From an uncultured Carboxylicivirga sp. (GTDB lineage: Bacteria > Bacteroidota > Bacteroidia > Bacteroidales > Marinilabiliaceae), in NCBI GenBank assembly GCA_947503525.1, contig CANNEA010000001.1:744001-808000 (forward strand): 64,000 nt of DNA, given 5' to 3'. The translations under genes and the position numbers were made by a program. The notes beneath the pieces are model-generated. The model saw only the letters and a list, made by a program, of their open reading frames with translations, had not been told where the DNA came from and made no database searches. This document shows positions 32,999-51,662 of the stretch, piece after piece. The number at the start of each line of letters is the position of its first letter. The first letter of the stretch is position 1.

Positions 32999-33727
32999 AT
33001 GATAAAAAGGCTCATATTGTTATTATTAATTGTATTAAGGGTTGGCACATTAAGTGCCCGCCCTTTCTGCGATTCAATAATTGTTGTAAATAAAGGGCTT
33101 GGGGGCAATAATTCTAATGAGCTATTGGCAAGGTTAGATGCCGATGTGTTGACCTTAAAGCCAAACCTTGTGGTTTTAATGGTTGGTACTAATGACTTTC
33201 TAAATACTAAAAAGCTGGTTTCAATGGAGCAATATCAGCTGAACCTAAAAACCATTGCTACATCGATAAAAGAATCAGGTAGTCAGCTTATTGTTATGAG
33301 TTCGCCACCTGTTGACAGTACCTTTCTTTATCAGCGTCATGATAAGTCACTATATGCTGATGTACCAAATATTATGCTTCAAACAGTTAATGGTATGGTT
33401 GCCAAGATGGCTTTGGAAACTGATGTTTTTTACATTAACCTCTTTGACAAGTTTCAATCGCACAATATCCCAATTCATAATCAGGATTTATTTATCCGTA
33501 ATGAGTACAATTCAGGCTCTAATGATGGTGTTCATCCAACTGATTTAGGCTACCATTTTATTGCCAAAGTTATTCATCAATTTATAGTTAAGAACGATGA
33601 ATTAAGTTCTGTGCGCACGATTGTTTGCTTTGGCGACTCTATTACTAAAGGAGTAGGTTCTTCAAAAAGGAATAGTTATCCGGCACAGCTTGAGCAAATG
33701 CTTAATGCTGGTGTTGTCAAGCATTAA
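32999..33727 (+). CDS. circularly permuted SGNH/GDSL hydrolase, putative carbohydrate esterase
   Basis: A 242-residue secreted protein whose SGNH blocks occur in rotated order. After the signal peptide (to about A20) comes block II, V-N-K-G-L-G-G-N-N-S (Gly33-36). Then block III, V-G-T-N-D (Asn65), and block V, D-G-V-H (Asp176, His179). Block I, F-G-D-S-I-T-K-G with the nucleophile Ser214, lies at the C-terminus, followed by one helix (S-Y-P-A-Q-L-E-Q-M-L). In ordinary members block I is N-terminal. All four catalytic blocks are intact, and both breakpoints fall in the same loop, as expected of a circular permutation rather than decay. It probably removes acetyl groups from the target glycan. 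Confidence 0.8.
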   Translation: MIKRLILLLLIVLRVGTLSARPFCDSIIVVNKGLGGNNSNELLARLDADVLTLKPNLVVLMVGTNDFLNTKKLVSMEQYQLNLKTIATSIKESGSQLIVMSSPPVDSTFLYQRHDKSLYADVPNIMLQTVNGMVAKMALETDVFYINLFDKFQSHNIPIHNQDLFIRNEYNSGSNDGVHPTDLGYHFIAKVIHQFIVKNDELSSVRTIVCFGDSITKGVGSSKRNSYPAQLEQMLNAGVVKH

Positions 33728-37656: not shown

Positions 37657-40605
37657 ATGAATATCAATATTAGGTCGCAAAGAGTTGTTCTGATTCTATT
37701 TCTAATTAGTATTGGGAGTTTTGGTTTTTCAGAATCACTTAAAAGTCAGGATGTCTTTGTTTCATATGAAATAAAGGAATTTACATTTAAAGGACACGAG
37801 GCAAAAATTGTGTTCCCTAAGATAAAGAATGAGAACAATTATTGGATATGGCGAGCTAGGTTTTGGGGGCACGAACCGCAAGTTGATTTAGCTCTACTTG
37901 AAGAGGGTTTTCATGTAGCATATATCGATGTTGCTGGTTTATATGGCAATGATGAAGCGGTTGAATTATGGAATTTGTTTTACGATTTTTGTATTTCTGA
38001 GTATGGTCTCAACCCAAAAGTTGTATTGGAAGGAATGAGTCGTGGAGGTTTGATTGTGTATAACTGGGCCTCGGTTAATACCGATAAGGTAGCGTGTATT
38101 TATGCAGATGCTCCAGTATGTGATATTAAAAGCTGGCCCGGAGGTTGGTATAATGGGCAAGGCAGTGTTAAAGACTGGATAAAATGCCTGGAAGCCTATC
38201 AACTTGATTCGATTTCAGTCCGAGACTTTAAGGGTATACCGGTCAATACTAGTGTTAATGTTGCAAAGGCCGGAGTTCCTGTATTACATCTTTATGGTGA
38301 TGCCGATAAGGTTGTGCCATTTAAAGAAAATACAGCTGCGCTTGCGAGTAATTTTCAACAAGCAGGAGGTTCGATTAAGTTAATTTGTAAAGAAGGAATA
38401 GGCCATCACCCACATTGTCTGGAAAATCCAAAACCAATAGTCGATTTCATTTTAAGTAATCTGGAGTCCAACAGTGGTTATGAAAACATTTTATCATATA
38501 AAGCAATGGATAAAGAACATCCATTTCTTTTGGCCACTAATACCATTTTTGATGAGGTAAAAGATAAGGTAGAACAGCATCAGTGGGCTAAAGATAATTA
38601 TACCAGCATGTTGAGTGAATTGGATACTTATCAATTTCCAAAACAGAAGATCGTAACAAAGCCTCGACCTACCAAAGTGTGGAGTAGTTTAAATTACGGA
38701 CCTGCAGATGGCGAAAAAGCCTTTAAGCTGGCACTGGCTTATAAATTAAGTGGTAATGACAAGTACTTAACTAAGTTGCTTGATTTTGTAAGAAAACTCA
38801 CCGATAGAGAGGAGGGTTATTTATCAGTAGGTGCTGCTACGTATGGAGTTATGGTGCATGAAGGTAACTTCTTTTTACATTTAGCTGCTGCATGCGATGT
38901 CGTCTACGACGAACTGACAAGAGATGACCGACAGAATATTGAAGGCATCTTCCGACGTTATCTCAAACAAAATCGCGAGCACATGGTATCCAATGGTATT
39001 ATGAACCATCAGGCCAGTGCTAATGCCGGAGCAATTTTGGTGGCCTTATACCTTGAAGATATGGACGAAATCAATCACTTGACATATGCCGATGGAGGAA
39101 TGGCTGATCAAATCGGCAAAGGTGTGATGGCCGATGGTTGGTGGTTCGAAAGCACTGTGAACTATTGTTATTTGGTGGCACAACGTTATTGTTTGGTGGC
39201 TCAGGCTTATCAAAACTATGGTTGGGATTTATACCATAAACATTTTCCTGCCAAATATAAAGACAAGGATTTTGAAAATTGCAAAGATGGTTTTACCGGA
39301 ATGAAGTTTGAGAATTGGGGACCTACTGGAAAAAGCACACGAGGCCTGGAAGATATGGTTTCCCCTTATGTGCCATTTATGGATGAGAATGCAGTGGTGG
39401 TTTCAAGTAATGATTCAAAAGCCACAGCACCCGATCCTTATTATGAGTTAGCCTACCGTCAGTATGGCAATGAGGAGTTTGCATGGGTGTTGGATAAAAC
39501 AAAACGCGATTCATGGGTTTCATTAATGTATGGTGTACCTGAATTACCAAATGTAGCAGATCCTCGCACCGAATCTGCCTTTGCAGCTAATGTTGGTATT
39601 ACAGCATTACGTTCTCAAAAAGAGGGCGAAAGTAGTGAAGAGCAAATACAAGCCTATTTTAAATTCGGAACACATGGTGGTTGGCACGGACAGTTTGATC
39701 GAACTGGTATGTTAGCACTTGATCGCTATGGGCACAAATATTTTGGTACAGAAATGTGTTGGTATGGTTATGGCCATCCGGGTTATAAGGAGTGTGTACA
39801 AACATCTGCTACACATAACATGGTGGTTATTGACGAATTACAACAAGAAGCTGTACCAAGTGATCAACTCCTGTTTCATAAAGGTGAAATGATGCAGGCT
39901 TGCGTTACTCAAACCGTTGCCCGATGGAGACCAATTCCACGTTTTAACATCGATAAATTTCCACCTTGGAATGACTTTGATTTTGCTCCTGATTTTGAAC
40001 CTGTACTACAACGCCGTTTGTCCATTGTAACGGATGATTATGTTGTTATTGCTGATTTTGTGCAATCATCGCAGCAACATGACTATTATTGCTTAATACA
40101 TCCGGTGGGATTAAAAACCATAGACGGAGCAAAAGAAACAGGGGCGATGCAGGATAAATTAAATAAGGATGCAAATTCACCTTATAGTTATTTTGAGAAT
40201 GCCCAATGGTACAACATGAAAAAAGGTGCTCAGGCACATTTTGATGATAATGGATTTAAGTTGGATGTTCACACAGTTTGGCCTAAAAAGGCGAAGATGT
40301 TTATAGCTAACTATCCTGATGGAGGAAGAAGGCAAGGCATTAGAAATAATCCGGACAGAAGAACACTAGGTATCAGAGTAAGTGCCAAAGAAGCCGTTTT
40401 TTTCAATGTTGTTGAACCTTTTAAAGGTGAATCTGCAATTAGTAAAATTACGTCTGGTTCTCATGAAGAGTTAATTGTTTCTCTTAAAGATGGCAGAGAA
40501 CAAATAATAAAAATTGCTGGCTTTAAAGGTGATGGGAATGAAATTGAAATTGCTATTACCGAAAGCAGAAGTGGAAATATTATCACAACTGAAAAAACTA
40601 AGTAG
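37657..40605 (+). CDS. fusion: alpha/beta-hydrolase (esterase) plus heparinase II/III-like lyase
   Basis: A 982-residue secreted protein. Residues about 30-275 form an alpha/beta-hydrolase with nucleophile elbow G-M-S-R-G-G (Ser128), an Asp in Y-G-D-A-D-K-V-V (about 214) and a His in G-I-G-H-H-P (about 249). From about 290 (H-P-F-L-L-A-T-N) an alpha/alpha-toroid runs to about 600. It is followed by a beta-domain with H-G-G-W-H-G-Q-F-D (His673, His677, Asp681) and T-H-N-M-V-V (His720), the heparinase-type active-site strip. So one polypeptide carries both a deacylase-like and a lyase-like domain, which suggests that removal of an ester directly precedes beta-elimination. No linker repeats are visible and the frame is clean. 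Confidence 0.85.
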   Translation: MNINIRSQRVVLILFLISIGSFGFSESLKSQDVFVSYEIKEFTFKGHEAKIVFPKIKNENNYWIWRARFWGHEPQVDLALLEEGFHVAYIDVAGLYGNDEAVELWNLFYDFCISEYGLNPKVVLEGMSRGGLIVYNWASVNTDKVACIYADAPVCDIKSWPGGWYNGQGSVKDWIKCLEAYQLDSISVRDFKGIPVNTSVNVAKAGVPVLHLYGDADKVVPFKENTAALASNFQQAGGSIKLICKEGIGHHPHCLENPKPIVDFILSNLESNSGYENILSYKAMDKEHPFLLATNTIFDEVKDKVEQHQWAKDNYTSMLSELDTYQFPKQKIVTKPRPTKVWSSLNYGPADGEKAFKLALAYKLSGNDKYLTKLLDFVRKLTDREEGYLSVGAATYGVMVHEGNFFLHLAAACDVVYDELTRDDRQNIEGIFRRYLKQNREHMVSNGIMNHQASANAGAILVALYLEDMDEINHLTYADGGMADQIGKGVMADGWWFESTVNYCYLVAQRYCLVAQAYQNYGWDLYHKHFPAKYKDKDFENCKDGFTGMKFENWGPTGKSTRGLEDMVSPYVPFMDENAVVVSSNDSKATAPDPYYELAYRQYGNEEFAWVLDKTKRDSWVSLMYGVPELPNVADPRTESAFAANVGITALRSQKEGESSEEQIQAYFKFGTHGGWHGQFDRTGMLALDRYGHKYFGTEMCWYGYGHPGYKECVQTSATHNMVVIDELQQEAVPSDQLLFHKGEMMQACVTQTVARWRPIPRFNIDKFPPWNDFDFAPDFEPVLQRRLSIVTDDYVVIADFVQSSQQHDYYCLIHPVGLKTIDGAKETGAMQDKLNKDANSPYSYFENAQWYNMKKGAQAHFDDNGFKLDVHTVWPKKAKMFIANYPDGGRRQGIRNNPDRRTLGIRVSAKEAVFFNVVEPFKGESAISKITSGSHEELIVSLKDGREQIIKIAGFKGDGNEIEIAITESRSGNIITTEKTK

Positions 40606-45691: not shown

Positions 45692-48410
45692 ATGAAGTAT
45701 ATTTTAGTATCGATATTAATTTATCAAATGGCACTAGCTGCTTTCGCTCAGACCAAATCTAAAGAAGTGCTAAGGTATCAGGATGTTAGCCTGAGCTTTG
45801 AAGAACGGGCCAAAGACTTGATTAGTCAAATGACCTTGGATGAGAAAATTGCTCAGCTCGGTGACCGTTCTCCTGCCATACCTCGTTTAGGAGTGCCAGA
45901 ATACAATTGGTGGAACGAATGTTTGCATGGTGTTGCCAGAGCTGGTGATGCAACGGTTTTTCCACAGGCCATTGGAATGGCTGCTTCATTCGATCCTGAA
46001 TTGATGAAAAAAGTAGCTGATGTAATTAGTGATGAAGCGCGTGCAAAACATCATGAAGCGCTTCGTAATGACAAGTTTAATAGGTATTTTGGCTTAACCT
46101 ATTGGTCACCTAATATTAATATCTTCAGAGATCCGCGATGGGGCCGCGGTCATGAAACCTATGGAGAGGATCCATACCTTACAGGACAAATGGGAATACA
46201 GTTTGTAAAAGGATTGCAAGGTGATGATCCGAAATACTTAAAGTTGGTTGCAACCCCCAAACATTTTGCTGTGCACAATGGTCCGGAACCCGACAGACAT
46301 ACCTTTAATGTTACACCCAACTCACGCGATCTTTGGGAAACCTATTTGCCTGCATTTGAGGATTTAATGGTTGACGCGAAAGCCTATTCCATAATGGGAG
46401 CATACAATCGGGTCGATGGCGAATCATCTTGTGCAAGTTGGTTATTGCTTGAAGATATTTTAAGGAACAAATGGGGTTTCGAAGGTTATGTGGTTTCCGA
46501 TTGTGGAGCCATTAGAGATATTCATGCTTTTCATAAAATTGTGAATACACCCGAAGAAGCTGCCGCCATTGGAGTTCGAAAAGGCTGCGATTTAAACTGT
46601 GGCGATGTGTATCAAAACTTTTTAAAAAAAAGCGGTTGAGCTGGGTTTGATTGATGAAGGTGAGATTGATTTATCCTTATACCGATTGGTATTGGCAAAA
46701 ATGAAACTGGGTATGTTTGACAAAACGGAAGACGTTCCTTATGCAAATATTCCTTTTGAGGTAAATGATAATCAAGCTCATGATGAAGTGGCCCTCAAAA
46801 TGGCTCAAAAATCAATGACTTTATTAAAAAATGATGGCATCCTACCCTTGAATAAAAGTAAACTTAAACGGATTGCCGTTGTGGGGCCAAATGCCGATAA
46901 TGTTGGTGCCTTACGCGGTAACTATTATGGCAATGCAAGTCATCCGGTTACTGTTATTAATGGCATAAAGAAGGCTGTTGGCGAAGATGTTGAAGTTAGC
47001 TATGCGAAGGGTGTGCCAATGGTTATTTATGATGTCAATGAGGAAGAATTTCCTATAGTTGATAGTAAGTATTTATCTACTTTCGATGAGAATGGAGAAA
47101 AAGTACAAGGCTTGACAGGGCATTATTTCAATAATATGAATTTTGAAGGAGAGGCGGATTTAATACGTGTTGATCCTCAAATAAAATTTCAATGGCGAAG
47201 AACCATATCTCCAACTACCACGGAAGTTGCTCAGGGGATAATAAGTCGTGAAGATGCTATTAATGATGAGGCTTTTTCCATTCGTTGGACAGGCAAGTTG
47301 CTTGCGCCTATGACGGGTAGGTATAGATTGGGAGTATCTTCTGATGATGGTTGTCGCCTTTGGATCGATGGTAAACAAATTATAGAGGGGTGGGACATTC
47401 ACAATAGGAAAGAAGCTATTTTAAGCGAAGTTGATTTGGTAGAAGGGCAAAGCTACGATATCAAGTTAGAGTATTATGAAAATTTTGCGGTAGCCGAAGT
47501 GAATCTCATATGGGAAACACCAGAACATATTGCTAATGATAAAAACCTTGATCCGACCATACTCTCTCAAGAAACGTTAGCCGACATTAAAAATGCGGAT
47601 GTGGCCATTTTTGTTGGAGGAATTGACGCTTCATGGGAAGGTGAAGAGATGGCTGGACGCGACCATGTTGAAGGCTTTAATCGTGGCGATCGCACTAAGA
47701 TTGAATTACCGCAGATTCAACTCAAGGCCCTAAAAGCCATGAAAGAAACAGGTACGCCTGTAGTCTTTGTATTGATGGCCGGTAGTTCTATGTCGTTTGA
47801 TGGATTGGAAGAAGATTTGAAAGCCATTTTAATGTCATGGTATCCGGGGCAAAGAGGTGGCGATGCAGTTGCCGATGTCTTATTTGGAGGTTATAATCCT
47901 GCCGGACGTTTACCCATTACATTTTATTCATCAACTGAGGAAATAGCAGATTTTAAAGATTATAACATGCGTGCCGGTAAAGGTTTTACTTATCGATACT
48001 ATACCGGTGAAGCATTATTCCCCTTTGGGCATGGATTAAGTTATACTCAATTTGAGTACTCAAACCTAATGATAGATAAAAGTTCAGTTGCTAGTAATGA
48101 TGAAATTATGGTTTCTGTACAAGTTAAGAATAGTGGAAAATTGGATGGGGAAGAAGTGGTGCAGCTTTACATTAAGGATGTGGAGTCGGATAAATGGATG
48201 GCCTTAAAACAATTACGCAAATTTGAGCGAGTTGCTTTGAGAAAAGGTGAGACTAAAACGCTGACTTTTAAGTTAAATGTTACTGACGATTTGCGTTACT
48301 ATGATGCTATGTGTCGCGAATATAGGGTGGAACCTGGTGAATTTGAAATTAAGCTAGGTGCTTCAAGTCAAGATATTCGCTTAAAAGAAATCGTTTCTGT
48401 AGTGGAGTAA
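45692..48410 (+). pseudogene. GH3 glycosidase with PA14 insert, split by +1 frameshift
   Basis: Two frames together make one GH3 enzyme of about 905 residues. The first (45692-46639, 315 codons) holds the signal peptide and barrel with nucleophile V-V-S-D-C-G-A (Asp270), and ends abnormally at G-C-D-L-N-C-G-D-V-Y-Q-N-F-L-K-K-S-G. The second (46647-48410) continues with the second GH3 domain, a PA14 domain (L-T-G-H-Y-F-N to L-I-W-E-T-P) and the Fn3-like end. Eight A at 46624-46631 cause the break: removing one A gives L-K-K-A-V-E-L-G-L-I-D-E-G, the expected continuation. Either a sequencing/assembly homopolymer error, a real inactivating indel, or transcript slippage. The rest shows no decay, so error or very recent mutation is favoured. 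Confidence 0.85.

Positions 48411-49445: not shown

Positions 49446-51662
<2,217 letters not shown>

Follow-up and report, generated by a model that had tools for sequence, protein, structure and literature searches.

The window, by which we mean the whole stretch of 64,000 nucleotides from an uncultured Carboxylicivirga that was analysed, is a large glycan locus. Among the genes scanned, eight match the Pfam Sulfatase family, others match GH28, GH88, GH97, GH43, GH95, GH3 and Alginate_lyase, and two further esterase genes match SASA (sialate-type acetylesterase) and the PF00756 esterase family. The gene described here (32999..33727, forward strand, 242 aa plus stop) lies between a GH88-like gene (PF07470, 31787..32983) and a sodium:solute symporter gene (PF00474, 33764..35326), and the FAD-dependent oxidoreductase gene found further downstream (PF12831, 36279..37655) belongs to a family that recurs near its relatives; all three neighbours were assigned with Pfam and are on the forward strand. 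The ATG is separated by 15 bases from the stop of the GH88-like gene (32983), and 36 bases lie between its own stop and the next listed ORF, so that there is no room for a second SGNH copy on either side. No open frame was found opposite positions 32999-33727, where the reverse strand is full of stops. Three other features of the window were observed: a 982-aa protein (37657-40605) with a Peptidase_S9-like match in its N-terminal part and an alginate-lyase-like match further on, a seemingly split GH3 whose N-terminal domain (45692-46639) and C-terminal domain with PA14 and Fn3-like parts (46647-48410) are in separate ORFs, and, near the end of the glycan locus, a peroxidase (49452-51662; PF00141 in two stretches) that by reading is catalase-peroxidase-like.

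Translation of the ORF confirmed the block order II, III, V, I put forward in the original prediction, with all blocks intact and the motifs at the residues it had named. A hydrophobic N-terminal stretch (residues 1-20, MIKRLILLLLIVLRVGTLSA, 32999..33058), called by eye, resembles the signal peptide that had been proposed ahead of block II. Block II (33089..33109) lies in the motif VNKGLGGN, spans N31 to N37 and provides the putative oxyanion residue Gly33; block III (G63-T-N65-D66, in VGTND, 33185..33196) provides Asn65 as the second; and block V (D176-G-V-H179, 33524..33535) holds the predicted catalytic acid and base, all three being assigned from sequence and alignment. An N168-x-x-N171 motif (33500..33511), identified as family-specific when 16 permuted proteins were compared by residue with 34 canonical ones, stands just before block V. 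Beyond block V, a linker of about residues 196-206 (33584..33616; sequence, alignment and model) would connect the helix that comes last in the canonical chain with the strand that comes first there, which is followed by block I, G212-D-S214-I-T216, with the candidate nucleophile Ser214 (strand and motif 33617..33646; sequence and alignment). Residues 217-242 (33647..33724), including SYPAQLEQML, correspond by sequence and model to the canonical first helix, now the C-terminus. The chain would thus begin at canonical strand 2 and end with canonical strand 1, carrying block I, and its helix, the old C-terminal helix being connected to the old first strand by a short linker.

The protein matches two Pfam families, PF13472 (2.8e-23) and PF00657 (2.4e-20), each in two stretches, and its best stretch, which begins at profile position 36 or 44, leaves block I out. 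PF13472 as built expects one contiguous match with block I first; natively the protein scores above the cut-off without giving such a match, and a single stretch is obtained only with a rotated copy, which also scores above the cut-off. This copy, from which the signal stretch and the last five residues were omitted, covers positions 1-177 of 178 with 94.5 bits as compared to 83.7 bits natively, and the best PDB sequence match likewise moves from 7.9e-10 to 3.8e-13 upon rotation. The same operation was applied to the 16 permuted proteins using a profile of 34 canonical SGNH proteins free of permuted sequences; it is to be noted that the match to the rotated permuted profile guided both the choice of these 34, which was thus not blind, and their trimming, and that some are weak (22.9-109.4 bits). 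Rotation to block-I-first raised the score in 16/16 cases by 27.5-47.2 bits, the largest value being that of the window protein, and every rotated protein gave one match running from position 1 or 2 to position 198-201 of the 202-position profile. Chance motifs are ruled out by this test, which also suggests that the Ser, His and Asp residues would meet in space. All 15 members of the permuted-family alignment match both PF13472 and PF00657. Among the Pfam, NCBIfam and PHROGs matches listed, in which residue ranges are given for the window protein only, no family fits it in one piece.

The original prediction had proposed a search for homologues keeping the same order, and 18 further proteins sharing the order II-III-V-I were found, 15 of them on chromosomes of 14 other genomes and the remaining 3 in viral contigs, for a total of 19 with the window protein. 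Fourteen relatives that were aligned to the latter are 33-39% identical to it. The chromosomal members, 16 in 15 genomes when the window is included, are rare and patchy in distribution. A class-level search of 395 genomes recovered the window protein and three others (4/395), 37-39% identical over the matched range. A junction-spanning profile, whose genome searches were confined to the phylum of the window and whose genome samples overlap, yielded two new proteins in a phylum sample of 395 genomes (4/395 genomes permuted, two more with canonical matches), seven in 248 genomes of another order (8/248 permuted, three more with canonical matches) and three in 344 genomes of the order of the window (5/344 permuted, window counted), while a different class of the phylum, sampled with 195 genomes, contained a single permuted protein, already known. 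Within the family of the window, no second permuted gene was found among 71 genomes, its own included; besides the window gene, the matches at E≤1e-10 were one in its own genome and one in another (G007), neither of them having block I last. The permuted profile separates the family well, with 16 permuted proteins scoring at least 216 bits in one stretch, three later ones scoring 220.5-261.5 bits, and other SGNH matches remaining below 80 bits per stretch; where both parts of these other proteins match, block I comes first. One candidate, L063, has a second stretch reaching position 234 and was counted as canonical since its block I stands first.

Scans of viral contigs provided the three members found among phage-like genes, L027 (5335-6633), L028 (5251-6654) and L053 (3013-3708). 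The permuted domain forms the C-terminal portion of a larger protein in L027 and L028, where nothing in Pfam matches the N-terminal portion; L053 has it as an ORF of its own, which overlaps the end of a 588-aa protein carrying an fn3 match. A minor-tail match (PF10145) lies about 2 kb downstream of the domain in L027, upstream of it in L028 are matches to Baseplate_J and, slightly below the cut-off, to Tail_P2_I, and an amidase lies downstream in L053. Other searches returned no further members: a viral-contig scan with L028 as query recovered L028 itself only; 19 plasmid records gave matches, with no more than 80% of the query covered in any of them; the L028 domain as query matched 3 phage records, none over 80%; and a peptide-pattern scan of 84,980 genomes built from a single protein, a weak method that missed members found later, gave one locus, L009, which is canonical.

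Ser214, Gly33, Asn65, Asp176 and His179 are invariant in the 16 permuted proteins compared by residue, all of which carry the Ser, Gly, Asn and Asp-x-x-His of blocks I, II, III and V that define the SGNH superfamily. Also invariant in this set are, among others, Cys210, Asn37, Asn168 and Asn171. The last two form the N-x2-N that directly precedes block V; since the 34 canonical proteins do not conserve them, this motif is a family mark independent of the permutation itself. In the three proteins found later, read by eye, the catalytic residues and N-x2-N are all kept, and one of them (L106) has Asp at the place of Asn37. Together, the same-order homologues, the gain upon rotation and the residue conservation support the proposal that a whole domain has been naturally permuted.

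AlphaFold2 was run on the mature window protein with the three viral relatives (4 sequences; mean pLDDT 72.5, pTM 0.78) and on an alignment with L053 placed first (4 sequences; pLDDT 70.8, pTM 0.76). The window model consists of a strand (8-11), a helix, a strand (37-42), a helix, a strand (76-81), a helix, a strand (124-127), helices, a strand (187-191), a short helix and a final helix (207-216), and the L053 model has the same element order with a first strand of just two residues. With moderate confidence, both models show a three-layer flavodoxin-like fold in the permuted order, strands 2-3-4-5, helix, strand 1, helix; in the window model, protein residues 169-176 and 217-222 beside the active site have pLDDT below 50. 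Foldseek against the PDB (E≤0.001) returned 19 rows for the window model and 33 for the L053 model, and the family profile also matches every one of these entries by sequence. Most titles name GDSL/SGNH-type esterases or acylhydrolases; that of 5jd3 reads alpha/beta hydrolase, and three of the sequence-matching entries, 9hi4, 9hi5 and 9hi6, are design scaffolds. Because Foldseek follows chain order, canonical SGNH chains reach TM-scores of only about 0.5. No solved permuted relative appeared among the 60 of 63 PDB sequence matches listed, none of whose best stretches spans the whole permuted profile. In a viral structure library the best match was the esterase of Microbacterium phage Shocker.

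By the textbook route, a circular permutation arises when a gene is duplicated in tandem and both ends of the pair are then lost. In a maximum-likelihood tree of rotated and canonical sequences, from which 13 of the 34 canonical rows with long or deep branches were left out, the permuted label requires 2 changes as compared to 12.3 in shuffles (0/500 as low), and a 50-row tree likewise requires 2. The permuted proteins thus cluster, and a tree holding them as one clade, although 2.85 log units lower, is not rejected (p-AU 0.38). The N-x2-N mark common to the family speaks for one origin, and the permuted family is conserved and possibly of single origin.

The genomic surroundings of the permuted genes were compared at 13 loci in 12 genomes. 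At 10/13 of these loci the distance from the permuted gene to a PF12831 gene is 12 kb or less, as compared to 0/19 for other SGNH matches, the limit having been set after the data were seen and the nearest of the 19 controls lying at 12.8 kb; at 5 kb the counts are 9/13 and 0/19. The controls are SGNH matches other than permuted genes in ten of the same genomes, with block order confirmed by script for 8. With genes placed uniformly, 0.30 of 13 loci would be expected to have a PF12831 gene nearby, a lenient null since glycan loci cluster, which makes the other SGNH genes the better control. The flavoenzyme gene is found near the permuted gene in the window, L037, L039, L041-L045 and L047, and adjoins it in the later loci L105 and L107, L106 being a short stretch; in genome G713 its distance is 10.9 kb, which places it outside L040, and there is none near the permuted gene in G411, G432 and G946 (3/13 loci). 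By reading, SusC-like genes were named at 9 and SusD-like genes at 8 of the 13 loci, with glycoside hydrolases near some. Neither a SusC/SusD-like gene nor a glycoside hydrolase was recognised at L046, where one neighbour is an enolase-superfamily enzyme. Two observations were made in passing: a family of 710-717 aa proteins without Pfam match at E≤1e-5 is encoded near the permuted gene in three loci (L040:10984-13113, L041:10088-12238, L042:7007-9151), and a 1011-aa protein (L043:5231-8263) matches PF12831 in three stretches with two nucleotide-binding starts and is perhaps a double flavoenzyme. The suggestion that these proteins may define a new esterase family in PULs has to be widened in that the family is not limited to PULs, three viral contigs carrying it as well.

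The SGNH superfamily comprises >89,000 members (PMC9487903), and the earlier statement that known SGNH folds have block I as their first strand was too strong: AlgX, AlgJ, WssI and PatB1 are described as circularly permuted SGNH proteins of order H-S-G-N/Y/D (PMC9487903, PMC4148444, PMC10302187, PMC5697884). The window family shares a permuted fold with these AlgX and DHHW families, which differ in being cut between blocks III and V rather than between I and II and in being acetyltransferases with DxH, DHHW and an altered block II or III, whereas the motifs of the window family are canonical. Membership in either is ruled out by the order II-III-V-I with DGVH and GTND as against V-I-II-III with altered motifs (PMC9487903). 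We found no description of the G-N-H-S order in the open-access literature as far as its text was available, which bears out the claim that no named family has this layout, and the accessible parts of PMC3779223, PMC5408684, PMC12419801 and PMC13276840 make no mention of permuted SGNH proteins. Permuted SGNH proteins are already in print, and G-N-H-S is most likely a third SGNH arrangement. The closest solved relatives by profile and fold are PF13472 (GDSL-like lipase/acylhydrolase family 2) proteins and SGNH esterases such as 3p94, 4iyj, 4hf7, 7ddy and Axe2 (4oap), which have all four blocks, the oxyanion Gly/Asn and probably the same acylesterase chemistry, with block I first instead of last. 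BcCE25, a Bacteroides mannan acetylesterase raised on mannan, is likewise an SGNH glycan esterase but of canonical order, Ser37 ... Asp238-His241 (PMC13276840). SGNH-type esterases of named phages such as Shocker are detected by both sequence and fold, and L027, L028 and L053 also stand among phage-like genes; of the 17 named phage records matched, none has a place covering 80% of the query, as expected of canonical order.

We consider it probable that the window protein is a secreted SGNH-type serine hydrolase with a rotated chain that deacylates the glycan of its locus, most likely as a glycan O-acylesterase. Following established SGNH chemistry as set out in the available text of PMC9487903, Ser214, activated by His179-Asp176, would attack an ester carbonyl on the locus glycan, with the oxyanion hole formed by Gly33, Asn65 and the backbone of Ser214; removal of an acetyl or similar acyl group would make the sugar accessible to the locus-encoded sulfatases, lyases and glycosidases. 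Secretion, the geometry of the triad, esterase activity, acetyl as the leaving group and the glycan as target are all putative.

Could the gene instead be decayed or rearranged, block I having come last as a tandem-duplication leftover or through a frameshift or an assembly join? A relic of duplication and loss of both ends would look alike in a single genome, and the lack of a second permuted gene in the 71 genomes of the family would suit it, but the 18 same-order proteins spread over 14 further genomes and 3 viral contigs, the catalytic residues invariant in 16/16 and the absence of space for an SGNH fragment beside the gene leave this explanation very little probability. Divergent homologues in the same order refute a duplication relic, and the leftover without conserved homologues that had been named as counter-evidence to the permutation is not what we found. 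A TesA-type periplasmic lipase, thioesterase or lysophospholipase sitting in a glycan cluster by chance is the least improbable of the alternatives, although still unlikely: 14/15 members match a TesA-like NCBIfam model at E≤0.01 (best 6.5e-9), but 14/15 also match that of the acetylxylan esterase AxeA1 (best 6.5e-15), the window protein scoring far below both cut-offs (35.8 bits against 270 and 36.4 bits against 700), and the SusC-like and SusD-like clusters and glycoside hydrolases described above point to glycans. Somewhat less probable again is an O-acetyltransferase resembling AlgX, AlgJ, WssI or PatB1, in which the same triad would move acetyl from a donor to the glycan. The permuted SGNH proteins that we found in print are indeed acetyltransferases (PMC9487903, PMC4148444, PMC10302187), yet their cut is different, Tyr and DxH in AlgX/AlgJ (PMC9487903) stand against an intact block III Asn and DxxH here, GDSL esterase profiles match while AlgX is absent from the Pfam matches, and the locus is degradative, with no acyltransferase membrane protein among the neighbours scanned, which are part of the genes.

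A wider reading of deacylation by the rotated enzyme would be that G-N-H-S is a third natural topology which arose once, is common to bacterial glycan loci and phage tail genes, and in bacteria is the standing partner of the PF12831 flavoenzyme in an as yet undescribed oxidative pathway acting on acylated sugars; we put this forward tentatively and incline against it as a whole. It may also be speculated that a chain starting at strand 2 is well suited to being fused downstream of another domain, the arrangement seen in L027 and L028.

That a permutation placing the nucleophile close to the C-terminus has been conserved means that the SGNH fold tolerates a second natural cut point, and from the viral members it would seem that phage tail enzymes make use of this architecture too. 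In Pfam the window gene passes for a common GDSL lipase matched in two parts; the N-x2-N ahead of the DGVH block and the C-x-GDSIT near the end are marks by which such genes may be re-annotated. The permuted family, finally, ties the PF12831 flavoenzyme family to an esterase.
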